Shown: positions 2,166-40,914 of the stretch, in pieces
Numbering within the stretch: position 1 is the first letter of the stretch
How the letters are laid out: each line of letters opens with the position of its first letter
Virus record (IMG/VR): IMGVR_UViG_3300000116_000052
Span: 1 to 40,914 of that record
Reading direction: 5' to 3' (one strand)
Origin: a virus
Length of the DNA stretch: 40,914 nucleotides
The notes under the pieces: model-generated
The model's input: only the letters and a program-made list of their open reading frames with translations
Database searches by the model: none
Told to the model about the DNA's origin: nothing
Translations under genes and position numbers: made by a program

Positions 2166-2588
2166 TTAAAATTTAAGACCTACGCCTAACAATAAGTTAG
2201 TCGTTTTGTCACCTGAATTATAAACAACTTTAGGATCTACAAACACTCCTTTGTGAACAGTAAATAATTTACCAAGACCTACGCTTAGATTATCTGTTTC
2301 TAAGTTAGGACATGATGCATATACAAAAAGATCATGACCACCTAATGTCACAAAATATCTTGCGTGTACATCGATAACTTGATCAACAGTTGAATCAGCT
2401 TGAGATAAGTTTAAACCTACCATTAACTTATTTGTTATACCATACCCAACTGTTGGGCTTATAGACCATTCAGTCCATGCTGTGTTAGAAATGTCACCTG
2501 TACCTACGTAGAAGTCACCTTTCTCCTGTGCGTTTACTCCAAGTACTAATCCTAGTCCTAAAGCTAAACTCAAAATCATTTTTTTCAT
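2166..2588 (-). CDS. Exported outer-membrane beta-barrel-like protein, 140 aa
   Basis: The protein starts with a Sec signal peptide (MKKMILSLALGLGLVLGVNA, then QEK). The mature part alternates hydrophobic and polar residues in short strands (for example KLMVGLNLS, HDLFVYAS, TNLLLGVGLKF) and ends in phenylalanine, typical of outer-membrane barrels inserted by BAM. At about 120 mature residues it could form a small barrel. It has its own promoter-like site at 2746-2773 and an unusually long leader containing three stem-loops. A phage might use such a protein to alter surface receptors, but function is unknown. It differs from the larger barrel-like protein at 11938-12981. Confidence 0.65.
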   Translation of the reverse strand: MKKMILSLALGLGLVLGVNAQEKGDFYVGTGDISNTAWTEWSISPTVGYGITNKLMVGLNLSQADSTVDQVIDVHARYFVTLGGHDLFVYASCPNLETDNLSVGLGKLFTVHKGVFVDPKVVYNSGDKTTNLLLGVGLKF

Positions 2589-6041: not shown

Positions 6042-6650
6042 TTAAACAATATCTTTAGACTCAATAAGAGTATAAGTAAATGAATTACCCCAAACATCTC
6101 TAGCTTGACGTAAAATTTTCATAAATACAGCAAAATCTTCATTTGAAGCAATTACTTGACAACCAGCAGACCATTTGTCAACTCGAGTTGATTTTCCTCC
6201 TGTTTTAGCTGTTGCTCTATGAATATTAATTCCAAAAATACCTTTTTCAATATCTTCTTCTAAACAATCATAAACCCCATCAGTATTATCATCACGATAG
6301 ACTGAAAGAGGTTTAGCTTGTCTTAATGCTTCATATTTTCCTTGGTGTAAACCAATTTTATGAGAACTTCTATACTGTCCTGGTTTTAAAATTGCTACAC
6401 CATTGGGGTTTAATAAATTTTCTACCCAATGTGTTCCAGGATCTGTTGTACATTTATAACAATGAAATTGCCATTCATTATTAATTTTATAGGATAAAGT
6501 TATACAATCATCAAAGGCATTAGTAACCCTATTTTTAGTTTTTGAATTTCTAACACCTATGATATTAACATCATAATCCCCACCAGTAAAGTATTTATAA
6601 TCTTTACTAACCATTGTTTCTTCAATTTGTTCTCTTGTATAACAATTCAT
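6042..6650 (-). CDS. L,D-transpeptidase-like protein, candidate endolysin
   Basis: The C-terminal half contains GINIHRA (H144) and, 17 residues later, SAGCQV (S161, C164). This histidine plus S-x-G-C pattern is that of YkuD-type L,D-transpeptidase/cysteine peptidase active sites, which act on peptidoglycan. There is no signal peptide, as expected for an endolysin released by a holin. The gene directly follows a holin-like gene (8-base gap), giving a plausible lysis pair. The N-terminal 90 residues are unrecognised. The assignment rests on the motif alone, so the reaction (cleaving or forming peptide crosslinks) is open. Confidence 0.6.
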   Translation of the reverse strand: MNCYTREQIEETMVSKDYKYFTGGDYDVNIIGVRNSKTKNRVTNAFDDCITLSYKINNEWQFHCYKCTTDPGTHWVENLLNPNGVAILKPGQYRSSHKIGLHQGKYEALRQAKPLSVYRDDNTDGVYDCLEEDIEKGIFGINIHRATAKTGGKSTRVDKWSAGCQVIASNEDFAVFMKILRQARDVWGNSFTYTLIESKDIV

Positions 6651-6658
6651 AATTTAAA

Positions 6659-6874
6659 TTATTTTTTTGCAAATTTTTCTACTCCTGCTATTCCAAAACA
6701 CCCAATTACAATCCAAGTAAAAGCATTATATATTGTTTCATTAATTACTAAATCTTTACCTGTATATCCAGTTAATAAATCCATTAAAGCAAATATACAC
6801 ATTATAATAAATGCTATAAAACCTACTATTGTTTTTTCATTCCATTCATTATTATCTTTAAATATTGACCACAT
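6659..6874 (-). CDS. Holin-like small membrane protein
   Basis: The 71-residue protein has two hydrophobic segments (about residues 16-35 and 46-65) with a charged N-terminus and a lysine-rich C-terminus (KFAKK). This is the size and topology of class II holins. The gene lies 8 bases upstream of the L,D-transpeptidase-like gene, and holin-lysin adjacency is common in phages. The holin call is inferred from topology and neighbourhood. Confidence 0.6.
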   Translation of the reverse strand: MWSIFKDNNEWNEKTIVGFIAFIIMCIFALMDLLTGYTGKDLVINETIYNAFTWIVIGCFGIAGVEKFAKK

Positions 6875-6921: not shown

Positions 6922-7779
6922 TTATATTGTATCTTCTGCAGTTACTCTAATAGTTGATATTTTAAATGAACCTTGACAAAGGTCAGACCATTCTTTACAA
7001 GAAGCATCATCATATCTGTAAGCACCATTTGGATCTGGGGAATAACCTTGCCAATATGAAGCAACTATTTTCCATCCATTTTCCATGTCTTCTTTTAAAC
7101 CATCTAAACTAACTAATTTACTTCCTTCCCCAGCTGTATTGTTTTTAAAATCATATACTACAACACTATTACTACCTTGAGTAAAAGTTGTTGTCATGTT
7201 AGTATAATCACTGTTAAATTCTGTTATTACATCAAACGGTAATGATGGGTCTATAGAAGAAGCATCAACTATACCAGTACCAGAAGATTTACTTTGATCC
7301 CAACAAACATTAGAAGATAATGAACCTAAAAAAGCATATTGGTAATTTTGTATTTTATTTATGTGTATTGTTGACTGAGTAGCTACATTACCATTAGTTT
7401 CTAAGAAATCTATTTCATCACAACAATCTGTGCAACCATCACCTGAATCACAATAATCATCTTGACTTTTTACCATATAAAAAGCAGCATTAACACCTCT
7501 TAAATCTTTTAAACCTGATATATCTACTGTAGCACTAATTTTTGATATATTTTTGTATCCTTTTATAGAACGTACTCTACCTGCATTAAATTCAATTTCA
7601 TCATTTGATATTATAGGAGCTCCACTAGTACAACCTTTACTATAATCTTGTGTAAATGTAGGACTATATATTGCTGTTCCATCTTTTTCTACTGTACCTA
7701 CTACAATTTCATTTTTTTCATTTTCACTGCCACATCCTATAAATAGAAGTGTTATTAATAGTATAAATATTTTTTTCAT
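6922..7779 (-). CDS. Lipoprotein with GH7/GH16-like (clan GH-B) active-site motif
   Basis: The N-terminus is a lipoprotein signal peptide with lipobox LFIGC (C16) followed by an acidic stretch. Residues 119-128 read CCDEIDFLET: E122-x-D124-x-x-E127 has the catalytic spacing of clan GH-B glucanases. It fits the GH16 active-site pattern E-I-D-F-L-E-x-x-G-N-x-A, while the preceding NAAFYMV...YCDS and CC recall GH7 enzymes. The later part is beta-rich with tryptophans, as in concanavalin-like folds. Such enzymes cleave beta-1,4 or beta-1,3 glucans. On a membrane-anchored protein the target could be host or surrounding polysaccharide. It follows the T9SS cargo gene by 3 bases. The fold is likely, but activity and substrate are inferred. 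Confidence 0.6.
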   Translation of the reverse strand: MKKIFILLITLLFIGCGSENEKNEIVVGTVEKDGTAIYSPTFTQDYSKGCTSGAPIISNDEIEFNAGRVRSIKGYKNISKISATVDISGLKDLRGVNAAFYMVKSQDDYCDSGDGCTDCCDEIDFLETNGNVATQSTIHINKIQNYQYAFLGSLSSNVCWDQSKSSGTGIVDASSIDPSLPFDVITEFNSDYTNMTTTFTQGSNSVVVYDFKNNTAGEGSKLVSLDGLKEDMENGWKIVASYWQGYSPDPNGAYRYDDASCKEWSDLCQGSFKISTIRVTAEDTI

Positions 7780-7782
7780 TTT

Positions 7783-10700
7783 TTATTGTTTAATTATTTT
7801 ATTTATAAATCTTTTTTCTTGATAAATTATTATCACGTGATAAATACCAGAAGGAAAATTATTCATATCAATTCTTTTAATATTTTTCTCTTTTAATATT
7901 AATTCTCCTGTTATATTATACAATTCTACTTCAATATTTAAACGAGTATCAATGTTTACTATGTCTTGTGCTGGGTTAGGATAAACTCTTATACCTAATG
8001 TTGATAAATCTTCAAGTGAAGTAGGCCAACCTAACTCACAATAATTATACATTGATTGACAATTTACATCCCAATCATTTGTACAACAATAATTATCAAC
8101 ATCAATTACCCAAGCATAACATCCATCATTTAACCAATAAGGTATACCAGGTCCTCCATAACAACCAGCATCATATAAACAAGCTGTTGTATCTGAAACA
8201 TTTGCTGTAGGATCATAATTATAAGCAGCTACGTCAGTACAACCTGAAATTGGTGTAACACACGACCCATCATCAAAACAAGCATCTGAATCATAATTTA
8301 CTGCTGTTGGGTCAGTACAACCTCCTATATAACAACAAGAATTATCTAATGTGTTTGCTAATAAATTAAAATTAAGTGCTGTGTTATCAGTACAACCATA
8401 AATAAATGGAATGCAAGTTGCATTATCAGTATTTGCTAATGGGTCAAAATTAAACATAGTGGAATCAGTACAACCATATATTACAGGGATACATGAACCA
8501 TTATCTGTGTTAGCTGCAGGATTATAATTAAATGCCATTACATCCATACAACCATATATAAATGGTATACAACTATTATCATCTGTATTTGCTAGAGGGT
8601 CATAGTTAAAGGCATTAGGATCTGTACAACCATATATCGGGTAAATACAACCTACATTTGTGTTTGCTAATGGGTCATAATTATAAGCTGTTGAATCTGT
8701 GCATCCATAAATGTATGGTACGCATGAACCATCATCTACATTAGCATTTATGTTAAAATTAAAAGCATTTGGGTCAGTACAACCTAAAATTGGATAAATA
8801 CAACCTATATTTGTATTTGCTGATAAATCGTAATTAAGTGCAGTAGGATCTGTACAACCTAAAACTACAGGGACACATGAACCATCATCAGTATTTGCGT
8901 TAGGATCATAGTTAAAAGCACTTGGATCTGTACAACCTAAAATTGGGTAGATACAACCTATATTTACATTTGCTAACGAATCATAGTTTAAAGCTGTAGG
9001 GTCAGTACAACCTAAAACCTCAGGTACACATGAACCATCATCTGTGTTTGCATTTACATTAAAATTAAATGCAGTAGGATCTGTACAACCTAAAACAATA
9101 GGAATACATGAACCATTATTTGTATTAGCTAAAATATCATAGTTAAAAGCTAAAGGATCTGTACAACCAAATATTATTGGAATGCAACTTCCATCATCTG
9201 TATTTGCTGCTGGGTTGTAATTAAATTGTGTATCATCCATACAACCTAATATTACAGGTATACAAGATAAAGGATCATTTGTATTTGCTGTAGGGTTAAA
9301 ATTAAATGCAGTTGAATCCATGCAACCTATTATTATAGGTTCACACGAACCATCATCTATATTTGCTAATGAGTCATAATTAAAAGCTAAATTATTTGTA
9401 CAACCTAAAATAATTGGAGTACAAGTATCAGGCATATTAGCTAAACTATCATAATTTAATGCTGTAGGATCCATACAACCTAAAACTCCAGGTGTACAAT
9501 AATTCCCACAATAAGGTACATTATTATATCTATAGGGAAATTGTAACATAGGATCTGTCCAAGGATTTGTTCCACCAGATAGTGTAGTATCACCTTCAGG
9601 ACCTATTAAAAAGAATCCACATTGGTTAGCTGTTGTAGATGAATTACCAGGTGCAAAAAACATTAATTCAACTGGGCTTAAAGCACTTAAAGTAATTGTA
9701 AATGATTCTGAGTAACCATCGTTAGGACCCATCATAAAAGGACCTAATATTGTGGTATCTTGTAATATACCAACCCACGCTCCAAACCATCCATCTTCTG
9801 CTTCATCTGTAATTACTAAAGTATAATCACAACTAGGAATTATATCCATTGTATTTGCTAATGGATCGTAATCAGGTGAAGTTGGATCTACACAACCAAT
9901 TGCTACAGGAGTCAAACAAGAACCATCATCTGTATTAGCTTGTGGATCGTATTCTGTAAATCCTAAAGTAGTACATCCTAAAATAATATTAGGTGTACAA
10001 GGAGCTACAGTATAAATTACAGAAGTATCATTTCCAAAATTTGCATTACCTGGTAATATAGATAATAAAGTATCTCCACACAAGGTTTGAACTAATACTG
10101 TTCCATCAACTCCTCCATAACAAGAACCACATAAACCATCACCAAAAGAATCAAATAAAGTAAATTCAATTACAGTACCATTTGGTACACATATTTCTGA
10201 TATTACAGGTACTCCTGTTATAGTATAAGAAGGGGAAGTTGCTAATACTGTACCTGTTGTATCTGCAATTTCCCAAGAAGTTTCTCCAGCATAAGTATCT
10301 GGTGTAAGTGTTATTATAATATTAGATTCTCCACTTGAACAATTTGCAGGAGGGGCTTGACATGAACCATCATCTGAATTAGCCCAAGGGTTGTAATTTA
10401 AAGCTGAAGGATCAGTACAACCTGGTATACATTCTCCTGTTGTTATTATTAAAGTATCTGTTAAACTTGAATCAGCTAACATTCCTAAAAAATAATAAGT
10501 AGTATTTGGCTGATTATTATTAAATAAAACTCCTGTATTTGACCAATTTGTAGGATAAGGATTCCACTGTGTACCTAAACTATAAAGAGATGTTGTTCTT
10601 GTATAATAAGCCATTCTACAACTAGGATTAGGCATATTACTCCAATGATACCAAACTTTATTTCCACCTAAATCACAAAAATTTTCTACCCAAAGAGTAT

Positions 10701-11187
10701 CTAATCCATTACAAGATGGATAAGTACATAAAAGTGGATTAGAAAAATATGCAGTTGAATCATAATTAGAAGCATTAGGATCCATACAACCCCCCATAGG
10801 AGGAGCACAAGGAGCAATAGTTAATGTTTGTACTAAACTATCTCCAAAATTCCCTGCAACATACATAATTGTATCTTGACATGAATTGCTAATCATAAAC
10901 CACCCATCAGTACCACCCCATTGAGATGAACCTAACCCATCACCAAAAGAATCATATATACTCGCAATAATAGTTCCACCAAGTTGAACGATAGTATCAT
11001 ATAGAGTATTAGGTAGCATATTGCTATCATTTTCTATAATAATAGGTGAGCCACCTGGAGGTGTAATATTCCAACTTGTTTCAGAAGGATAATTATCTGT
11101 CATTAATTGGATATGAATCCAAGAATTTTGTGTATAACCTAAAAAAGGTATTAAAATTATTAATAATAATAACTGTAGTTTTTTCAT
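7783..11187 (-). CDS. T9SS cargo: secreted Cys-rich repeat protein with type A sorting domain
   Basis: The 1134-residue protein has a Sec signal peptide (MKKLQLLLLIILIPFLGYTQ). Its N-terminal half contains beta-rich modules with the DSFGDGL motif (twice) and a related EDGWFG module. Next come 21 copies in total of a 20-26-residue repeat, GC(T/M)DPxAxNYDPxANTDDGSC, 17 of them in one continuous block (about residues 569-1007). A CC-x4-WD-x2-C module precedes a typical type IX sorting domain: VYPNPAQDIVNI near 1065, then LYNITGELI, MNNFPSGIYHV and a lysine-rich end. In Bacteroidota this C-terminal domain sends proteins across the outer membrane through T9SS. The DDG motifs hint at calcium binding. 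The gene is flanked by other exported-protein genes at gaps of 3 and 12 bases. Finding it between phage genes is very unusual. Confidence 0.9.
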   Translation of the reverse strand: MKKLQLLLLIILIPFLGYTQNSWIHIQLMTDNYPSETSWNITPPGGSPIIIENDSNMLPNTLYDTIVQLGGTIIASIYDSFGDGLGSSQWGGTDGWFMISNSCQDTIMYVAGNFGDSLVQTLTIAPCAPPMGGCMDPNASNYDSTAYFSNPLLCTYPSCNGLDTLWVENFCDLGGNKVWYHWSNMPNPSCRMAYYTRTTSLYSLGTQWNPYPTNWSNTGVLFNNNQPNTTYYFLGMLADSSLTDTLIITTGECIPGCTDPSALNYNPWANSDDGSCQAPPANCSSGESNIIITLTPDTYAGETSWEIADTTGTVLATSPSYTITGVPVISEICVPNGTVIEFTLFDSFGDGLCGSCYGGVDGTVLVQTLCGDTLLSILPGNANFGNDTSVIYTVAPCTPNIILGCTTLGFTEYDPQANTDDGSCLTPVAIGCVDPTSPDYDPLANTMDIIPSCDYTLVITDEAEDGWFGAWVGILQDTTILGPFMMGPNDGYSESFTITLSALSPVELMFFAPGNSSTTANQCGFFLIGPEGDTTLSGGTNPWTDPMLQFPYRYNNVPYCGNYCTPGVLGCMDPTALNYDSLANMPDTCTPIILGCTNNLAFNYDSLANIDDGSCEPIIIGCMDSTAFNFNPTANTNDPLSCIPVILGCMDDTQFNYNPAANTDDGSCIPIIFGCTDPLAFNYDILANTNNGSCIPIVLGCTDPTAFNFNVNANTDDGSCVPEVLGCTDPTALNYDSLANVNIGCIYPILGCTDPSAFNYDPNANTDDGSCVPVVLGCTDPTALNYDLSANTNIGCIYPILGCTDPNAFNFNINANVDDGSCVPYIYGCTDSTAYNYDPLANTNVGCIYPIYGCTDPNAFNYDPLANTDDNSCIPFIYGCMDVMAFNYNPAANTDNGSCIPVIYGCTDSTMFNFDPLANTDNATCIPFIYGCTDNTALNFNLLANTLDNSCCYIGGCTDPTAVNYDSDACFDDGSCVTPISGCTDVAAYNYDPTANVSDTTACLYDAGCYGGPGIPYWLNDGCYAWVIDVDNYCCTNDWDVNCQSMYNYCELGWPTSLEDLSTLGIRVYPNPAQDIVNIDTRLNIEVELYNITGELILKEKNIKRIDMNNFPSGIYHVIIIYQEKRFINKIIKQ
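8165..9482 (-). repeat. Tandem coding repeats GCTDPxAxNYDPxANTDDGSC (17 contiguous units)
   Basis: In-frame units of about 60-78 bases, each encoding two cysteines and an acidic DDGSC-type loop. Units differ at many positions, and some carry a shortened NxGCIYPI end (units 11, 13 and 15 alternate with full ones), which suggests duplication of two-unit blocks. They lie inside the T9SS cargo gene, and four further isolated copies lie nearer its N-terminus. Confidence 0.9.
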
Positions 11188-11199
11188 TGTTTTTTTATA

Positions 11200-11544
11200 T
11201 TAAAAGTTTGACATTATAGTTTCATCAATCTTATCTTGTACTTCTTTTAAAGTAGCTTCTAATTTCATCATAATATTAGCTTGAAATCTTGCTACTTCTT
11301 CTCCATCATAAAACACAATTAAAGTAGGTACGACTACAATTTTATGTTTTGCTTGTAATTTTGGTTGGGTTGAAATATCAATTTTTGCTAAATCACAATC
11401 AGTTAATTCATCTAGATATTCACATTGAGTTCCTGAAAAAGGGGCATTAAATTCAGCTATAATTAATCCTTCACTTGGTATTACTTGAGATTTTACTATT
11501 AAAGAAAATAATAAAAATAACAGTAATATAAATAATTTTTTCAT
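11200..11544 (-). CDS. Periplasmic thioredoxin-fold protein lacking CxxC
   Basis: A signal peptide (MKKLFILLLFLLFSLIVKSQ) is followed by a compact thioredoxin-like domain: LIIAEFNAPF, CDLAKIDI, then VVVPTLIVFYDGEEVARF with the cis-proline VPT typical of the fold. The usual CxxC active site is replaced by FSGTQCEYL, which keeps a single cysteine, so classical disulfide exchange is unlikely. A second cysteine (CDLAK) could form a structural disulfide. Placed directly before the cysteine-rich T9SS cargo gene (12-base gap), it could help fold that protein or act as a chaperone, which is inference. It is distinct from the cytoplasmic T4 thioredoxin NrdC. Confidence 0.7.
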   Translation of the reverse strand: MKKLFILLLFLLFSLIVKSQVIPSEGLIIAEFNAPFSGTQCEYLDELTDCDLAKIDISTQPKLQAKHKIVVVPTLIVFYDGEEVARFQANIMMKLEATLKEVQDKIDETIMSNF

Positions 11545-11551
11545 AAGAATT

Positions 11552-11836
11552 TTATCTTAGTTTATCAAGCTTGTCTTCCATTCTAACAAGACGCTCTTTT
11601 AGTTCTTTAACATCATCTTGGGTTGTCATAATTGTTTGTCTAATAAGTTGATCTTTCATGTCATACTCCATTCTAGTTACATCTGGGGGTAGTGGGTTTG
11701 GTAGTTCTTTTGCTTCAGCTATATCAGCTTGTAATACAAACCACATACTAACTAATGTAAATATTAATACTGCTATTCCTCCTAAGCTTTTTATACTTAA
11801 TTTTAAAGTTGTATCTTCATTTATTTCTTTTGCCAT
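11552..11836 (-). CDS. Single-TM coiled-coil protein (possible inner-membrane spanin)
   Basis: The 94-residue protein has a short cytoplasmic N-terminus, one TM segment (about residues 15-36), a proline-containing linker (PNPLPPDV) and a C-terminal coiled coil with heptad spacing (DVKELKERLVRMEDKLDKL). This N-in topology with a periplasmic coiled coil is that of i-spanins, which act with outer-membrane lipoproteins at lysis. No spanin family motif is visible. The start codon lies within the end of the DUF5522-like gene (20-base overlap), implying translational coupling. Confidence 0.6.
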   Translation of the reverse strand: MAKEINEDTTLKLSIKSLGGIAVLIFTLVSMWFVLQADIAEAKELPNPLPPDVTRMEYDMKDQLIRQTIMTTQDDVKELKERLVRMEDKLDKLR

Positions 11837-11933
11837 CTTTATATTTTATTTTATATGGACAATTTTTGCAACCATTTTTGCAACAATATCCCCTTTCTAA
11901 TAATATTTTTTTACTTAAAGGTTCATAATTCAT
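11817..11933 (-). CDS. DUF5522-like small Cys-rich protein, 38 aa
   Basis: An ATG at 11933 opens a 38-codon frame ending in TGA at 11817. The product contains LLERGYCCKNGCKNCPY, with four of its five cysteines as CC-x3-C-x2-C. This matches my memory of the DUF5522 family, short proteins widespread in Bacteroidota with an RGxCC...C..CPY core that may bind metal. The frame fills the gap between the outer-membrane protein gene (4 bases) and the TM/coiled-coil gene, overlapping the latter by 20 bases. Function is unknown. It is further evidence of a Bacteroidota host or gene source. Confidence 0.75.
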   Translation of the reverse strand: MNYEPLSKKILLERGYCCKNGCKNCPYKIKYKDGKRNK

Positions 11934-11937
11934 TTAA

Positions 11938-12981
11938 TTAGAATATTACATAATTCATCCCAATAGAAAAATCATGCCATTCTCTATTCCAATATTTATT
12001 ATATTTACCCTCAGCAAATACTCCTAAGTGTTTATCAAATTTATACCCTAATATTAATCCCCCTGAATAATCATACCATTGGCCTTCATTATACTTATGG
12101 TATGAAAATTCTCCTCCTTGATCTAAATGATAAGGCATTAAATTCCCCCATGAATGTAACCAAAATGTTTTTGTGTAATGATAATAATCAAATCCTATTA
12201 TTAATGAATGTTGTATTGTATTATCTAATTGATTTCTTTTTTTCTCTGTATAATTTGATAACATTTCTGGTATAGCTATTGCTTCCCACACTTCAGTTGA
12301 AGTTGCAACAGAGTTTCCTGATGGGTCAAAATATTCTACATTACCTTGTCCATCAAATATAGTAGTATAACCTTCTTCTAGTGCTAAAAATGTATAATGT
12401 AAATTTCCATTTGATAATTTCCATTCTTCTAAAGGATCATAACCATAAGGTTCAGATAAACGTTGCACTGCACCTACATTAAATGACAATTTTGGATTAT
12501 GTTTGTACCTATAACGTTGTGATGATTCAAAATACTTAATATCTGCAAAACCATCCGCTAAGTATTCAATTTTAGCTATCCACTTATCATCAACATACCT
12601 TAAAAAATGATGTTGATCTAAATAATTTTCACCTTGTTGTCTTTTATAATCAACTTCAAATAAAAATTCAAATCCTTTTACTTTACCTACTGTAGTAGCA
12701 TCAGAAAATGATTTTTCAGTTCCATCATAAAAAGTGTTTGCACGATTTTCATAACCAAATCTAGCTATTTTTCTAATACCTGCAGTTAAAGAATAATCAA
12801 AAGGGGTTTCAATTGTAGTTGTTTGTAAACCACTAGTAACAGAATATACATCTACATCAGAAATAGATGTCCCCCCATTTGCTGCTGTGTAAAATGTAGC
12901 AAATTTAAATATTTTTTTTAAATCTTGACTATAAGAATTAAAAGTACTAAATATAAGAATTAAAAATAATAATTTTTTCAT
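11938..12981 (-). CDS. Exported outer-membrane beta-barrel-like protein, 347 aa
   Basis: A signal peptide (MKKLLFLILIFSTFNSYSQ) precedes about 328 residues rich in aromatic residues and alternating strands (for example SLIIGFDYYHY, GGLILGYKF, FSIGMNYVIF), ending in phenylalanine as outer-membrane barrels do. No catalytic motif is recognised. It follows the AT-hook peptide gene with a 1-base gap between stop and start, and is the first exported protein in the cassette under the late-type motif at 13156-13171. Possible roles include blocking receptors, opening the outer membrane or anchoring partners; none is shown. Confidence 0.65.
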   Translation of the reverse strand: MKKLLFLILIFSTFNSYSQDLKKIFKFATFYTAANGGTSISDVDVYSVTSGLQTTTIETPFDYSLTAGIRKIARFGYENRANTFYDGTEKSFSDATTVGKVKGFEFLFEVDYKRQQGENYLDQHHFLRYVDDKWIAKIEYLADGFADIKYFESSQRYRYKHNPKLSFNVGAVQRLSEPYGYDPLEEWKLSNGNLHYTFLALEEGYTTIFDGQGNVEYFDPSGNSVATSTEVWEAIAIPEMLSNYTEKKRNQLDNTIQHSLIIGFDYYHYTKTFWLHSWGNLMPYHLDQGGEFSYHKYNEGQWYDYSGGLILGYKFDKHLGVFAEGKYNKYWNREWHDFSIGMNYVIF

Positions 12982-12982
12982 T

Positions 12983-13150
12983 TTATTTTTTTTTAGGTCT
13001 ACCTCTTCTCTTAGGTGCAGGCCTACCTTTATTAGTTTCCCATGAAGATTTTACATTATTTTTTTTGGGTGGTTTTACTATTTTAGTTGTTTTTTCGTCT
13101 GTAGTTGTTTTTTTAAATAACCAATTCCAAAATTGAATAAATTTTTCCAT
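12983..13150 (-). CDS. Small basic AT-hook-like protein, 55 aa
   Basis: The ATG at 13150 opens a 55-codon frame ending in TAA at 12983, one base before the next gene's ATG. The C-terminus reads NKGRPAPKRRGRPKKK: GRP with flanking Lys/Arg is the AT-hook DNA-binding core, here present twice. The N-terminus is aromatic (FIQFWNWLFKK). A late-type motif lies 5 bases upstream of the ATG. It is a plausible DNA-binding or nucleoid-targeting peptide expressed late; this is inference from the motif in very AT-rich DNA. Confidence 0.7.
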   Translation of the reverse strand: MEKFIQFWNWLFKKTTTDEKTTKIVKPPKKNNVKSSWETNKGRPAPKRRGRPKKK

Positions 13151-13155
13151 AAAAT

Positions 13156-13171
13156 ATTTTATTATAAATAT
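13156..13171 (-). promoter_or_regulatory. Candidate late promoter motif ATATTTATAATAAAAT
   Basis: Exact copy of the 16-base motif on the minus strand, ending 5 bases before the ATG at 13150. It would drive the whole envelope and lysis run down to 4792, whose genes are separated by 47 bases or less. If its TATAAT is a -10 element the transcript would be nearly leaderless. Confidence 0.65.
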
Positions 13172-13214
13172 ATAAAACTAACTAGGAATATGTAAACTAA
13201 TATAGAAAATTACA

Positions 13215-15068
13215 TTATACTATTTCACAAGCACCTCCAGCACAAGCTGCTTGATCCTTTAAATCTGTTTCATCAGTCATTTCAATTATTTTTCTTAAAT
13301 CAATATTATTTAAATGACTTTCCATTTCTTGAAATTTTTCTTTTGAAATATCTTCAAAAGGAGCTTGAGTATATGAACCATTATCGTAAGGTAATACAGA
13401 TAAACCATTAAATGTGTTTTTATTTTTCCACATCCATTCTCCAACGGAATCCCACTCATCTTGTTTAACTGAAATTGTAGCCGAAACATTATTTGTATTA
13501 GCTCCTTTTCTATGACCTGCTTTTACCCATTCCATGTTAAACTTTTTAGTTCTTTCTAATAAATCCATTGGACTTTCTGTTCTATAAATTGCTCCATCAG
13601 GTGCTTTTTGAGGAACTGAAACAACTGCTTGGATTTCTGGTTTAAAGAAATCATCTTCTACTAATTCCGGGTGATTTTGTGAAAGATATTGGTAAAGTGC
13701 TTCATTTTTTCCTAATCTCATACGTCTTACATAAAAATCATTATGCCAAGCATGAATTCCTGATGAAGTTCCTAATACTAATGAACTAGTTCCTGAAGGT
13801 TTTACTGTTGTTACACGAGCTGCTTTTTTAACCCCTAATATATTTGCAATTTCTTCATTTGTTTTTTTAGCTTCTTTAGCTGCTTCCTCCAAATCATATT
13901 TTAAAACTATTCCACTACCAATTCCCGTCATTCCTACCCCAACAAGTGCATCTTTTTCAGTTGTTCTTTTCCAAATATCACGAAGATAATGAAAATTAGT
14001 ATAAGCTGCTTGTAAAGTTCCTAAAAAAGCTCCAGCTTTTACTCTTTTATTTAAATCTTCTTGGGACTCTATATTAGAAACATTAATTTCTGTTAAATTG
14101 CAAAACTGAAATGGTCTTAAAGCAATTTCACAACATGGATTTGTTCCCCAGTCTTTATCATCTGAAAAATAAATTCCAGGTTCACCAGAGTTACTTGCAA
14201 CAATTTTTCCCCATAATTCATTAAAATCTTTTTTAGTTACTTTTGAACGAATAACTACAGCTGAATTGTTAGCTCTACCCCTTTGTGGGTTTAATTCCCA
14301 CCAAGCACCATGTTTTGAAGTTAACATTTCATTATCATGTAAATCAAATAAAGAAATTAATGCTGCTCTACGAATACCACCAGATAATACAGCATCAGCA
14401 ATATGACAAATAATATCATGAGCTTCAATAGATGTTAATTGTTCTCCATCTTCTTTTCTATCTAATACTTTTTGTATTTGAAACAAACATTCTTTTAATG
14501 GTTCTGGGCCTGGTGCTTTACCTCCTACAGTAATTAATTCTGCTCCTTTTGGTCTAATATCACGGAAGTCAAAAACAGGTCTTGCAGTTGTTATTCCAAA
14601 ATAAGATTTTAATAATACTTTAACAGAATCAGCCCACCCTTCAATTGAATCTCCTACTAAAAATCTTCTTGTTTTTCTAGGAATTCTAATTTCAGGTAAC
14701 TTTTCAATGTGATGTTTTTGAACACTATAACCTACACCACAACCTGAAAGTAATAAAAACATTACTTCACTAAATGATCTCCAATCATCAATTGGTAAAA
14801 AAGAACAATTAAATATTCTAGAATTATTTATATCAATAGGCTTTCCTGCAAACTGTAAACTACGCATTGATGGTAGAACTTTTTTAGAATATACCATTTT
14901 ATAAACATCTTCAATTTCTTCTTTTAAATTAGGAAACTTTTCTTGATGCATTTCTTTATTCCTAGTAACTAACTCTTCCCATGTTTCTCTTCTTTGTTTA
15001 TTAGGTAAATATTTTGCATATTTGTTATAAACTACAATATCTGATAGTATTTCCTGCGTAATGTTCAT
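13215..15068 (-). CDS. Adenosylcobalamin-dependent (class II) ribonucleotide reductase, RTPR-like
   Basis: The protein makes deoxyribonucleotides from ribonucleotides. The key cysteines match Lactobacillus RTPR: C88 (NCSF) as a redox partner of C323 (FCNL), C312 in NPCCEI as the thiyl-radical residue with E314 two residues on, and C609/C614 at the tail (CAGGAC). The C312-to-C323 spacing of 11 equals that of C408-C419 in the known enzyme. LLLSGCGVGYS and the C-x-E active site support class II, monomeric type. At 617 residues it is shorter than the roughly 740-residue enzyme. Cobalamin must come from the host or the environment. T4 itself uses a class I enzyme (NrdA/B). The gene follows the helicase gene by 30 bases, in the FEN-helicase-RNR operon. 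Confidence 0.9.
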   Translation of the reverse strand: MNITQEILSDIVVYNKYAKYLPNKQRRETWEELVTRNKEMHQEKFPNLKEEIEDVYKMVYSKKVLPSMRSLQFAGKPIDINNSRIFNCSFLPIDDWRSFSEVMFLLLSGCGVGYSVQKHHIEKLPEIRIPRKTRRFLVGDSIEGWADSVKVLLKSYFGITTARPVFDFRDIRPKGAELITVGGKAPGPEPLKECLFQIQKVLDRKEDGEQLTSIEAHDIICHIADAVLSGGIRRAALISLFDLHDNEMLTSKHGAWWELNPQRGRANNSAVVIRSKVTKKDFNELWGKIVASNSGEPGIYFSDDKDWGTNPCCEIALRPFQFCNLTEINVSNIESQEDLNKRVKAGAFLGTLQAAYTNFHYLRDIWKRTTEKDALVGVGMTGIGSGIVLKYDLEEAAKEAKKTNEEIANILGVKKAARVTTVKPSGTSSLVLGTSSGIHAWHNDFYVRRMRLGKNEALYQYLSQNHPELVEDDFFKPEIQAVVSVPQKAPDGAIYRTESPMDLLERTKKFNMEWVKAGHRKGANTNNVSATISVKQDEWDSVGEWMWKNKNTFNGLSVLPYDNGSYTQAPFEDISKEKFQEMESHLNNIDLRKIIEMTDETDLKDQAACAGGACEIV

Positions 15069-15098
15069 TTTATTTTTGTTTTTTTATTGTTATTATTT

Positions 15099-16472
15099 CT
15101 ATGTATTTAATTCAAAAAATTTCTTTTGCAACTCAGATCTATCAAATTTATCAATCCCACTAAAACTATTAGTTTGTGGAGATGATGTATTATCATTATC
15201 TTCTTCACCTTCTTGATAGAGCTCATTTGATACTTCAAAGTGACCAGTTGATGTATCAGCTTTTACACCAAATGTTAAACCATCCATGCCATATCTATTT
15301 TTCATAATATGGAATCTTCCAGTTCCTTCTACTTTATCTTTGCGTTGTCTAGAAAGAGAAATACAAACATCTGTAATCATAATTTTATCGTATGACCCAG
15401 CTGCTTTATCTCCCTCTACAATATTATCTTTAGCACCTGCTCTATTTACTTGGGAAACACTCCAAACTGGTATGTCTAGTTCACGAGCTAATCCTTTTGT
15501 ACTAGTATAAATATCATCAATTTCCCCTTTTCTATCAACTGTTTTTCTTTTTGATGAAAGAAGATCTACATAATCAATTATAATTAAATCTGGTTCAATT
15601 CCTGTGTCTTTTACTTTTTGGATATGTGATTCTATAGTGGACATTGTTGCCTTTCCTGTGGGAAATTCTTTAATAATTAAATTTCCTTTTAAATCCCCCA
15701 TTATATTTTCAATCTTATCTTTATGTTTTTGAATTTTATCAACTCCAATTTTAGAAAAATAAGCATCATATCTCCTTCCTACATATTGTTCACCTAATTC
15801 TAAAGTATAATGTAAAACATTATAACCTAACTTAACAGCATGTGCTCCTAAAGCTACTAACGACCAAGATTTACCACCTCCTGGATTACCAAATATAAGA
15901 CCAAAATCTCCATTTCCGAGACCTCCCTGAAGTAATTGATTAATTTTATCCCAAGGGGTTTTAATTGTAACTCTACTATCTTCTCTATATCTTGATTCAA
16001 TATCTTTAGTATATTCATGTCCTATATTTTTATCTTGTCCTGCTTTAATAGCATTATTAATTAAATGTCTTATAGACTCATAATCTCCACCTTTTAATAA
16101 ATCAACACTTTGTAATAAAGCTCCTTTTAACTGTTGGTTTTTACAAAAAGCAGAAAATTCTTCTTGTACATATTCTAAATCATCATTAGAAGTATTATAT
16201 GCTTCTTTAAGTTGTTCTTTTATAGATATTTGTAATACTTCATTCCCACATTTTTGTAATTCAACGGCTAATATTTCCATTGAAGGTGTAGTATGATATT
16301 TATCATAATATTTTAAAACTTCCTTGATAACCCATTTATGGGCTTGGTTATCAAAATATTCTTCACTCAACATATCATTAATGTTAACTAAAAATTCTTT
16401 ATGTGTTAATAAAGAAGATATTACTTTTATTTGAAACCCTGTACCATATGAGTTTAAATTTGTTAATGTCAT
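15099..16472 (-). CDS. DnaB-like replicative helicase (T4 gp41 counterpart)
   Basis: The 457-residue protein has the DnaB layout: a helical N-terminal domain (about 1-110), a linker, then a RecA-like ATPase. Walker A is GNPGGGKS (residues 195-202), Walker B DLIIIDYVDLL (D300), and SVSQVNRAGA fits the later sensor/DNA-binding motif. It unwinds DNA at the fork as a ring, probably with a primase that is not in this window. The acidic, serine-rich C-terminus may be an interaction tail. It starts 4 bases after the FEN nuclease gene ends, so the two are co-transcribed. Confidence 0.9.
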   Translation of the reverse strand: MTLTNLNSYGTGFQIKVISSLLTHKEFLVNINDMLSEEYFDNQAHKWVIKEVLKYYDKYHTTPSMEILAVELQKCGNEVLQISIKEQLKEAYNTSNDDLEYVQEEFSAFCKNQQLKGALLQSVDLLKGGDYESIRHLINNAIKAGQDKNIGHEYTKDIESRYREDSRVTIKTPWDKINQLLQGGLGNGDFGLIFGNPGGGKSWSLVALGAHAVKLGYNVLHYTLELGEQYVGRRYDAYFSKIGVDKIQKHKDKIENIMGDLKGNLIIKEFPTGKATMSTIESHIQKVKDTGIEPDLIIIDYVDLLSSKRKTVDRKGEIDDIYTSTKGLARELDIPVWSVSQVNRAGAKDNIVEGDKAAGSYDKIMITDVCISLSRQRKDKVEGTGRFHIMKNRYGMDGLTFGVKADTSTGHFEVSNELYQEGEEDNDNTSSPQTNSFSGIDKFDRSELQKKFFELNT

Positions 16473-40028: not shown

Positions 40029-40914
40029 TTATTTATTTTCTAAATTTTTAATTTTAATATTAAGTTCTTTAACAGCTTCAATTAATACAGCTACTAATCT
40101 ATCGTATCTAACCGCTTTATAACCATTAGCTCTTGTATCAACTAATTCTGGGAATATAGCTTCTATTTCTTGTGCTATAACACCTACATCATGTCCTTTA
40201 TTAGCATGTATAGCTTGTGTTTTATTAGCTTCAAATTCTAACCAATCAAATTCAACACCATTCATCATTATTACTTTATCTAAAGCGTTTGGTATTGGTA
40301 ATATATTAGTTTTTAATCTTTTATCTGATGTTGCATATGCAATTACATCATTTGCAGCTCTAATTAAACCATCTGTACTATTTGTTCCAGCTGATGATCC
40401 AACATTTAATCTTTGAGCAGTTACTAATCCTGTACCCGTAGTAAAAGTAAATTCAGCTGATGCTCCTGCAGCTCCACTGTTATTAAAAATAACTTCAGTA
40501 TTTGAACCTGCTACGGGGCCAATAGTACCTTGAGTACCTTGGTTACCTGTTGTACCTGTTGTACCAATAGTACCTTGTTTTCCTTGAGTACCCTGGTTAC
40601 CTGTTGTACCTGTTGTACCTATAGTACCTTGTTTACCTTGAGTACCCTGATTACCTGTTGTACCTGTTCCACCTAGTTTACCTTGAGTACCCTGAATACC
40701 TTGAATACCTGTATCTCCTAATGCTCCTGTAATACCTTGTAAACCAATAGTACCTTGTTTTCCTTGAGTTCCTTGTCTTCCTTGAGTTCCTTGTCTCCCT
40801 TGAGTACCCTGATTACCTGTTATACCTTGTTTTCCTTGAATACCTTGTAAACCAATAGTACCTTGTTTTCCTTGAGTTCCTTGTCTTCCTTGTCTTCCTT
40901 GAGTACCTTGATTA
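40029..40914 (-). CDS. Collagen-like tail fibre with C-terminal S74 self-cleaving chaperone, 5' end cut
   Basis: The frame is open from the window edge to the TAA at 40029 (295 codons), so the N-terminus is missing. About 130 residues of Gly-X-Y collagen-like repeat are followed by a linker and a peptidase S74 intramolecular chaperone domain: ATSDKRLKTNI, MMNGVEFDWLEFEA, HDVGVIAQEIEAIFPELV and KAVRYDRLVAVLIEAVKEL. In this family the serine of SDKRLK (here 40328-40326) is the nucleophile that cuts off the chaperone after it has trimerised the fibre. The C-terminal 79 residues can also be read from an internal ATG at 40268, but the full frame is clearly coding. It is probably a tail fibre used in host attachment. 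Confidence 0.88.
   Translation of the reverse strand, partial: NQGTQGRQGRQGTQGKQGTIGLQGIQGKQGITGNQGTQGRQGTQGRQGTQGKQGTIGLQGITGALGDTGIQGIQGTQGKLGGTGTTGNQGTQGKQGTIGTTGTTGNQGTQGKQGTIGTTGTTGNQGTQGTIGPVAGSNTEVIFNNSGAAGASAEFTFTTGTGLVTAQRLNVGSSAGTNSTDGLIRAANDVIAYATSDKRLKTNILPIPNALDKVIMMNGVEFDWLEFEANKTQAIHANKGHDVGVIAQEIEAIFPELVDTRANGYKAVRYDRLVAVLIEAVKELNIKIKNLENK
40515..40914 (-). repeat. Collagen-like Gly-X-Y coding repeats
   Basis: In-frame triplet repeats dominated by GNQGTQGKQGTIGTTG- and GRQGTQGKQG-like units, continuing past the window edge. Near-identical copies of 30-60 bases occur several times, so the stretch is prone to expansion and contraction by recombination. Confidence 0.9.

Follow-up and report, generated by a model that had tools for sequence, protein, structure and literature searches.

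A conserved cassette of uncultured, mostly marine phages that probably encodes a cargo of the host type IX secretion system

Results and Discussion

The window analyzed in this work, a viral DNA of 40,914 nucleotides (IMG/VR record IMGVR_UViG_3300000116_000052), includes the gene of a long protein, P0001, that terminates in a type A sorting domain of the type IX secretion system (T9SS). The best explanation, which we consider likely, is that the phage infects a member of the Bacteroidota and that the gene specifies a cargo for the T9SS of this host. The gene is part of a conserved cassette, overlooked in the first-pass annotation of this DNA, in which the cargo is accompanied by a barrel predicted to lie in the outer membrane, a short coil with a membrane anchor, and a thioredoxin-like protein (Table 1). 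Phage-encoded T9SS cargo, reported twice in isolation, is here extended to a conserved system of wide distribution; if the cargo is exported, phages would be using the secretion system of infected Bacteroidota to remodel the cell surface.

Table 1. Features of the cassette and adjoining genes in the window.
Feature	Coordinates	Strand	Size or basis
Endolysin-like gene, downstream of cargo	6042..6650	-	phrog_3000, E 9.5e-38 (unknown function); phrog_33083 endolysin, E 1.3e-17
71-aa hydrophobic protein, often close to cassette	6659..6874	-	tblastn matches in related loci
Lipoprotein-like gene adjoining cargo	6922..7779	-	no tblastn match in L002-L031; no Pfam family
T9SS type A cargo gene (P0001)	7783..11187	-	1134 aa
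T9SS type A sorting domain, residues 1068-1134	7786..7986	-	TIGR04183, PF18962, six-frame search
Cys-rich repeats, main block, residues 570-1003	8179..9480	-	4 more repeats precede the block
Fibronectin-III-like domain, residues 157-252	10432..10719	-	AlphaFold model and fold match
Signal-peptide-like start, residues 1-19	11131..11187	-	by eye and crude rule
Secreted thioredoxin-like protein without CxxC, 114 aa	11200..11544	-	PF00085, 27.1 bits (cut-off 23.5)
94-aa protein with one hydrophobic segment and charged coil-like tail	11552..11836	-	read from sequence; weak phrog_1009 match (unknown function)
Predicted outer-membrane beta-barrel, 347 aa	11938..12981	-	AlphaFold model

The cargo gene

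The cargo gene occupies nucleotides 7783-11187 of the minus strand, which also encodes its neighbors. The gap is 3 bases on one side (7779 to 7783) and 12 bases on the other (11187 to 11200), and these coordinates, gaps, and the shared strand agree with the first-pass annotation. The type A sorting domain proposed there was recovered by profile search: the C-terminus scored 36.3 bits against TIGR04183 of NCBIfam (cut-off 23) and 44.7 bits against Pfam PF18962 (cut-off 27), and a six-frame search located the domain at nucleotides 7786-7986 with an E value of 2.2e-12. The domain extends to the last residue of the protein. A sequence search against solved structures yielded two weak matches (E 0.0017 and 0.033), both on the sorting domain. 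A Pfam match of P0001 to GM130_C (16.8 bits) was below the cut-off of 23.5 and was disregarded.

The count of 21 Cys-rich repeats could be reproduced by combining a regular expression, which had 19 matches including one at residue 1022 that is not a repeat, with the addition by eye of three repeats that end in IGC. The protein includes 65 Cys residues and has a net charge of about -105. As for the Sec signal peptide that had been claimed, a hydrophobic, signal-peptide-like start is indeed present on visual inspection and under a crude rule devised for this analysis, which stood in for a predictor. The AlphaFold model of residues 19-566 has a pLDDT of 80.3, and a fold search with the model, covering mostly model residues 139-375, identified the fibronectin-III-like domain through a modest match (best VIA-align row: Z 9.2, rmsd 2.5, 85 aligned). 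The dN/dS values of the cargo gene were 0.17 with respect to its homolog in L002 and 0.12 to that in L007, which indicates at the sequence level that the cargo is under purifying selection; with respect to the more distant L050 the value was higher, at 0.46.

Long phage ORFs with repeats similar to those of the cargo also lie amid fibre-like genes, in L031 as well as in the Kyanoviridae single-cell record MH319765, and in some records the cassette itself has a giant ORF on one side and fibre-like genes on the other. These locations would fit a cargo that is a virion component, either a fibre or a decoration of the particle. On the other hand, the repeat ORFs of L031 and MH319765 lack the tag (no TIGR04183 match), while a signal-peptide-like start was detected by the crude rule in 57 of 61 cargo homologs, so that a role in the virion appears very unlikely. 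Since they occur in these untagged ORFs, the repeats alone are no sign of secretion.

Phage setting and distribution of the cassette

The assignment of the window to a T4-like phage agrees with the matches to a tail sheath (phrog_23, E 1.2e-68), a tail tube, a UvsX-like recombinase, a single-strand binding protein, and a DnaB-like helicase. Among the matches listed, the nearest relatives of the tail sheath have Flavobacterium as their host. The lipoprotein-like gene next to the cargo had no tblastn match in the nearest relatives (L002-L031) and no Pfam family; its sole PDB match, 2lbo (E 4e-4), falls on a Cys-rich stretch and is probably compositional.

The sorting domain is present in 27 of 30 related IMG/VR records, and the barrel gene of the cassette was counted in at least 578 IMG/VR stretches, relatives that rule out a singleton gene. 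A cargo homolog was found in 70 of 80 barrel loci, and in the remaining 10 the contig ends at most 1.4 kb from the barrel. These loci are not independent because six of them (L039, L047, L052, L094, L098, and L108) sit in records that the cargo search had already retrieved, and certain contigs (e.g. L044-L046) are almost the same. Phage records of differing kinds contain the cassette, and the phages are uncultured, mostly marine, and probably infect Bacteroidota. In a sample drawn by tail sheath, consisting mostly of short fragments, 17 records were at least 24 kb long and only 3 of these had the tag. When the 50,697 records of INPHARED were searched, P0001 matched one record, in the repeats only, the thioredoxin-like protein had one weak match, and the barrel and the 94-aa protein had none.

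The cargo region could be thought of as an assembly join with host DNA, or as host DNA mis-called viral, and similar repeats are in fact present on two Flavobacteriales MAG contigs (L034 and L037). This origin is extremely improbable because the gene order is identical in independent records and because the barrel is rare in host genomes, where it was found in 2 of 395 Flavobacteriales genomes, each time on a cassette contig. The first-pass annotation had suggested looking for the gene in related phage records in order to exclude a chimera, and it is this search that found the same gene, in the same order, on independent contigs.

Partner genes

The thioredoxin-like protein and the 94-aa protein are each conserved alongside the cargo in related loci. 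None of 64 homologs of the former has the CxxC active site, which argues against a redox-active thioredoxin. The AlphaFold model of the barrel includes 12 long strands (pLDDT 69.7, pTM 0.67), and its best fold matches are outer-membrane barrels; SprA-PorV and SprF chains were absent among the fold matches listed. Pfam contains a PorP/SprF model. The sequence of the barrel did not identify it as PorP/SprF, nor did it match any Pfam (E 0.1 or better), NCBIfam, or PHROG family. A cargo gene that adjoins an outer-membrane barrel gene is also the arrangement of type B cargo with PorP/SprF shuttle barrels, as described in the available portion of PMC12618676. The phage cassette differs in that its tag is of type A or a short tail and its barrel is outside the Pfam families. 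No PADLOC family of known anti-phage defence was detected (E 0.01 or better) among the seven proteins given.

The barrel, the membrane-anchored coil, the thioredoxin-like protein, and the cargo might jointly disturb the envelope late in infection as an aid to lysis. The endolysin-like gene downstream of the cargo, which is also near the cassette in L018, L028, L050, L072, and L073, and the membrane segment followed by a coil-like tail in the 94-aa protein are consistent with such an activity. However, there is no obvious role in it for an exported, tagged surface protein of 600-1650 residues, and no spanin or holin family was matched in Pfam or PHROG. We therefore consider a lysis aid unlikely.

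Relation to other phage-encoded cargo

The statement in the first-pass annotation that phage-encoded T9SS cargo is rarely if ever described is correct only in part: such cargo had already been reported. In the literature searched, as far as its available text goes, the reports are limited to PMC7468147 and PMC6949934, and the accessible parts of PMC10013915 and PMC13288928 report no phage cargo. According to the portion of PMC7468147 available, Cryophage genes include T9SS type A sorting domains and are taken to use the host secretion system. The Cryophage genes are three in number and variable, coding for an endoglucanase, a member of glycoside hydrolase 39, and a PA14 protein, whereas the window phage has, in a comparison by description only, a single conserved family that is rich in repeats and keeps the same partner genes. 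The crAss-BACON gut phages resemble the window phage in that their contigs carry T9SS sorting domains, but there the domains adjoin the head region and are associated with BACON domains, and the text available of PMC6949934 describes no such cassette. The texts available in this literature include no report of the present cassette or of the switching of tags discussed below.

The cultured Flavobacterium phage immuto (NC_055915), the nearest tail-sheath relative of the window among the matches listed, has a type A tagged gene, gp015, in the same genome region as the cargo gene, a few genes past the replication and ribonucleotide reductase genes. It differs in that the gp015 product is a 243-aa cargo annotated as a cohesin-domain protein, and immuto has no barrel of the cassette family. 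Relatives of gp015 among the 50,697 INPHARED records are confined to the four immuto records.

Proposed function

Because the largest product of the cassette bears the bacterium's own export tag, the phage probably employs the host secretion machine to place a long protein on the surface of the infected cell, and the case for its export to that surface is good. The cargo would cross the inner membrane via Sec and then be exported by the host T9SS. Once outside, it would be either displayed or released as an acidic, extended stalk that is rich in disulphides and includes beta-sandwich domains. Its partners may act with it, the barrel at the outer membrane, the coil at the inner membrane, and the thioredoxin-like protein in the periplasm.

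The first-pass annotation had raised superinfection exclusion, aggregation, attachment to neighbors, and nutrient capture as possible functions. Among the purposes considered, superinfection exclusion may be the likeliest, with adhesion close behind, at low confidence in either case. Tentatively, the surface of the infected cell could be coated or altered in such a way that further phages, including released progeny, fail to adsorb. The stalk could instead stick infected cells to neighbors or particles or bind nutrients, leaving the progeny near new hosts or the cell fed until lysis. The combination of beta-sandwich and Cys-rich repeats in the cargo, and the lectin- and cohesin-annotated genes that adjoin the tagged gene in immuto, are compatible with adhesion or capture. 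The modest fold match (Z 9.2), however, says nothing on function, and adhesion by itself leaves the barrel, the coil, and the thioredoxin-like protein unexplained; we regard it as doubtful. Exclusion of further phages could also be the outcome of a more elaborate, rather speculative scheme, in which unrelated marine phages would share a device that spans the envelope from the inner membrane to the surface. It would combine the coil in the inner membrane, a periplasmic thioredoxin devoid of redox activity, an outer-membrane barrel dedicated to shuttling or anchoring, and a T9SS-exported stalk, re-tagged to the signal of the host, and would as a whole close the cell to further phages.

Sorting tags

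Among the 70 cargo loci, seven ORFs are cut by a contig end (six marked open plus L111), which leaves 63 complete ORFs. Of these, 44 terminate in the type A domain and 18 in a short tail some 42 residues long, so that 62 carry one of the two tags. In the exception, L083, the cargo ORF stops before the tail, and a short tail is encoded just downstream in another frame. In L111 and L113 the cargo match chosen at first was another ORF; the L113 cargo is encoded by an ORF of 774 aa that has a type A domain. A tree of the barrels, from which L115 was omitted for its short barrel ORF and in which L113 was left unlabelled, required at least 4-5 tag switches (at least five, four of them forced by starred branches) compared to a mean of 15.7 when the tags were shuffled.

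The short tail was detected in 43 of 99 Flavobacteriales genomes, and the two tags co-occur in genomes of this order. In 20 of 20 host places, picked among the high scorers, it is C-terminal and ends 0-5 residues before the stop, and 17 of these 20 proteins satisfy the crude signal-peptide rule. It was not recognized by NCBIfam in the six tailed proteins scanned. Comparison of these sequences indicates that one sorting tag has been repeatedly replaced by another that is also used by the likely hosts. In effect, the switching tests in nature which tags the T9SS will accept, and it suggests that Flavobacteriales with small genomes use a short sorting signal. The part of PMC11969387 available describes short C-terminal T9SS signals of 43-55 residues, alongside long ones, in Prevotella intermedia. 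The short tail found here falls within the 40-55 residues of a short CTD and is likened to these signals by length and position only; it comes from Flavobacteriales and from phages and not from P. intermedia.

The cargo gene and its relatives

The window record is a linear IMG/VR sequence of 40,914 bases whose cargo gene encodes a protein with 65 cysteines and, at its N-terminus, a hydrophobic segment that ends in GYTQ. Two features claimed for this product in the first-pass annotation were confirmed: the Cys-rich repeats of the GCTDPxAxNYDPxANTDDGSC type number 21 (18 located by regular expression and three by eye), and the C-terminus matches the type A sorting domain of the type IX secretion system (T9SS) with scores over the cut-offs of TIGR04183 (36.3 bits, cut-off 23) and PF18962 (44.7 bits, cut-off 27). 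The AlphaFold model of the N-terminal half (residues 19-566, pLDDT 80.3, pTM 0.44) is a chain of beta-rich domains, and residues 157-252 resemble fibronectin type III domains with a score barely over the tool's stated background (Z 9.2, rmsd 2.5, 85 aligned).

A scan of IMG/VR identified relatives of the cargo at 30 loci, with the sorting domain over the cut-off in 27 of the 30 records. As to the remaining three, the contig of L007 stops within the gene, L012 carries a short tail of another kind at its C-terminus, and L031 has an untagged 2713-residue ORF that shares only the repeats with the cargo. The gene order around the cargo is that of the window in six loci (L002, L003, L004, L007, L011, and L025) up to the contig ends. 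This search of related phage genomes, proposed in the first-pass annotation, makes a chimera very unlikely. The cargo gene is real, phage-borne, and widespread. Compared with L002, dN/dS was 0.17 across the gene and 0.22 within the sorting domain; the gene gave 0.12 in the comparison with L007, which covers part of it, and 0.46 with the more distant L050. Repeats of the same kind also occur in untagged phage ORFs located among fibre-like genes, in L031 and in L033 (record MH319765, Kyanoviridae).

A search of GTDB genomes with the cargo returned four loci, two host-like contigs with repeats (L034 and L037) and two cassette contigs (L035 and L036). L035 belongs to a MAG named as the archaeon Nitrosopelagicus, and since the single TIGR04183 match of this MAG is on the L035 contig itself, L035 is most likely a phage contig binned wrongly. 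The barrel was found in two of 395 Flavobacteriales genomes (L139 and L140), in both cases on contigs with small cassette genes; a tagged cargo is present in L139 and absent from the 4.2 kb examined in L140. All four cassette contigs in MAGs are probably mis-binned phage DNA.

The cassette

Three genes, those for the barrel, the 94-residue protein, and the thioredoxin-like protein, accompany the cargo in most related loci, in variable order. A search with the barrel alone found at least 578 relatives, and the 80 best loci were retained. A homologue of the cargo is present in 70 of these 80, in most cases no more than 3 kb away, and in the remaining ten a contig end lies less than 1.4 kb from the barrel on one side. 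TIGR04183 scored over the cut-off in 40 of the 74 newly found barrel-locus records (31/50 and 9/24).

Coordinates of the cassette genes and other features
Record	Positions	Strand	Residues	Feature
Window	7783-11187	minus	1134	cargo
Window	11200-11544			thioredoxin-like protein
Window	11552-11836		94	small protein, one hydrophobic segment and charged tail
Window	11938-12981		347	barrel
Window	2166-2588	minus	140	protein with signal-peptide-like start
Window	6922-7779	minus		lipoprotein-like gene
Window	40029-40913	minus		collagen-like repeat protein, truncated at window end
L066	621-9956			large ORF directly or nearly directly before cassette
L075	3124-9981			same
L077	119-9394			same
L091	560-9967			same
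L031	3599-11740			untagged ORF with Cys-rich repeats
L033	3598-5142			same
L118 (immuto)	10527-15868			gp013-gp018
LR756502.1	325937-326140			type A tag, huge uncultured phage
LR745206.1	298450-298647			same
MT836089.1	10943-11146			type A tag, faecal phage

The AlphaFold model of the barrel has 12 long strands (pLDDT 69.7, pTM 0.67), and the first 27 rows of its structural comparison are all outer-membrane proteins, including EstA (Z 14.0, rmsd 4.3, 202 aligned), Tsx (Z 13.9, rmsd 3.5, 193 aligned), and KdgM (Z 13.7, rmsd 3.7, 163 aligned). No Pfam family matched the barrel. The thioredoxin-like protein lacks CxxC in all 64 different homologues. A crude signal-peptide rule of our own was satisfied by 68 of 68 thioredoxin-like proteins and 78 of 80 barrels. 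We infer that the four cassette products would be distributed over the inner membrane, periplasm, outer membrane, and surface.

Phage lineages and host

The window encodes a tail sheath, tail tube, UvsX-like recombinase, single-strand binding protein, DnaB-like helicase, and ribonucleotide reductase, in agreement with its earlier description as a T4-like phage genome. Among the 2,606 INPHARED records matching the sheath, the top matches were the Flavobacterium phages immuto (53.7% identical across 69% of the query), an indication that the host belongs to the Bacteroidota. At a genome position similar to that of the cassette, the cultured phage immuto carries lectin- and cohesin-annotated genes within gp013-gp018; one gene of this group, gp015, has a type A tag (46.5 bits), and there are further genes with signal-peptide-like starts as judged by eye.

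The window sheath has a match in eight of 50 chosen records. Sheath-negative records are all fragments, so that a single missing sheath proves little; nine records of 94-130 kb without a match (G011, G012, G015, G035, G039, G054, G057, G079, and G102), although also fragments, suggest a second lineage. In L066, L075, L077, and L091 the cassette lies between an ORF of 2,285-3,135 residues and fibre-like genes; the large ORF of L066, the one scanned, matched no Pfam family. When records were chosen by sheath instead of cassette, the tag was found in three of 17 of at least 24 kb and three of four of at least 75 kb. The same three tagged records have a full-length barrel match, and one other, G515, shows two partial matches to the barrel at the end of the record.

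Two tags and the probable export of the cargo

Seven of the 70 cargo ORFs are truncated by a contig end. Of the other 63, 44 carry the long type A domain at the C-terminus and 18 a short tail (about 42 residues) with the pattern D-[ILV]-LGR followed by LLxxIYxDGSVxKxxIKK or similar; in the last, L083, the short tail lies just past the stop in another frame. A YNYCxGTWxGPLP-like stretch precedes the tag in 14 of 15 aligned ends, that of L066 being different. A quick tree built from the barrels of 79 loci and of the window (43 labelled long, 18 short) requires at least five tag changes, four of them forced by starred branches. Shuffled tags gave a mean of 15.7 changes, and none of 500 shuffles needed as few as observed. 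The tags thus cluster but switch repeatedly.

The short tail occurs in 43 of 99 Flavobacteriales genomes, at up to 50 places per genome, and 42 of these 43 genomes are 0.8-2.0 Mb in size. The long tag is present in 87 of the 99, among them every one of the 43 with the short tail; the 12 genomes without it also lack the short tail. In 20 selected high-scoring host places (L119-L138) the tail always lies 0-5 residues from the stop, and 17 of the proteins have a signal-peptide-like start by the crude rule. NCBIfam recognised the tail in none of six tailed proteins (seven proteins scanned). The short tail found in these small genomes has the look of a T9SS sorting signal. By description, it resembles the short CTDs of Prevotella intermedia, which according to PMC11969387 is the one species in the phylum for which both CTD kinds have been reported.

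As the cargo has kept a tag while alternating repeatedly between two that coexist in likely host genomes, the host probably exports it; in our view this retention is the best evidence for export. What the cargo does we infer: a long acidic protein at the surface would suit a role in keeping further phages from adsorbing. A role in adhesion also fits, given the domains of the cargo and the lectin- and cohesin-annotated genes adjoining the tagged gp015 of immuto, while a part in lysis or a place in the virion seems less probable than either adsorption blocking or adhesion.

Relation to earlier reports

The first-pass statement that phage-encoded T9SS cargo is rarely if ever described stands in that reports are few, and fails in that some exist: the retrieved parts of the respective papers describe T9SS cargo in Cryophage, with three variable genes and termed a unique occurrence by the authors (PMC7468147), and in crAss-BACON phages (PMC6949934). 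Type A tags over the cut-off are also present in LR756502 and LR745206, two huge genomes of uncultured phages, and in the faecal record MT836089. Phage T9SS cargo is therefore already known; the cassette is a form for which no earlier report appeared among the matches listed in literature searches. Its closest parallel, according to the retrieved text of PMC12618676, is the bacterial type B cargo, which often adjoins its own shuttle barrel, although the phage barrel differs in that it matched no Pfam family.

Other genes of the window

The lipoprotein-like gene includes the stretch CCDEIDFLETN, which is reminiscent of the clan GH-B glycoside hydrolase catalytic motif; it matched no Pfam family and nothing in the nearest relatives. 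The 140-residue protein has a weak outer-membrane barrel domain match, below the cut-off, and relatives in L010 and L018. The collagen-like repeat protein is probably a tail fibre.
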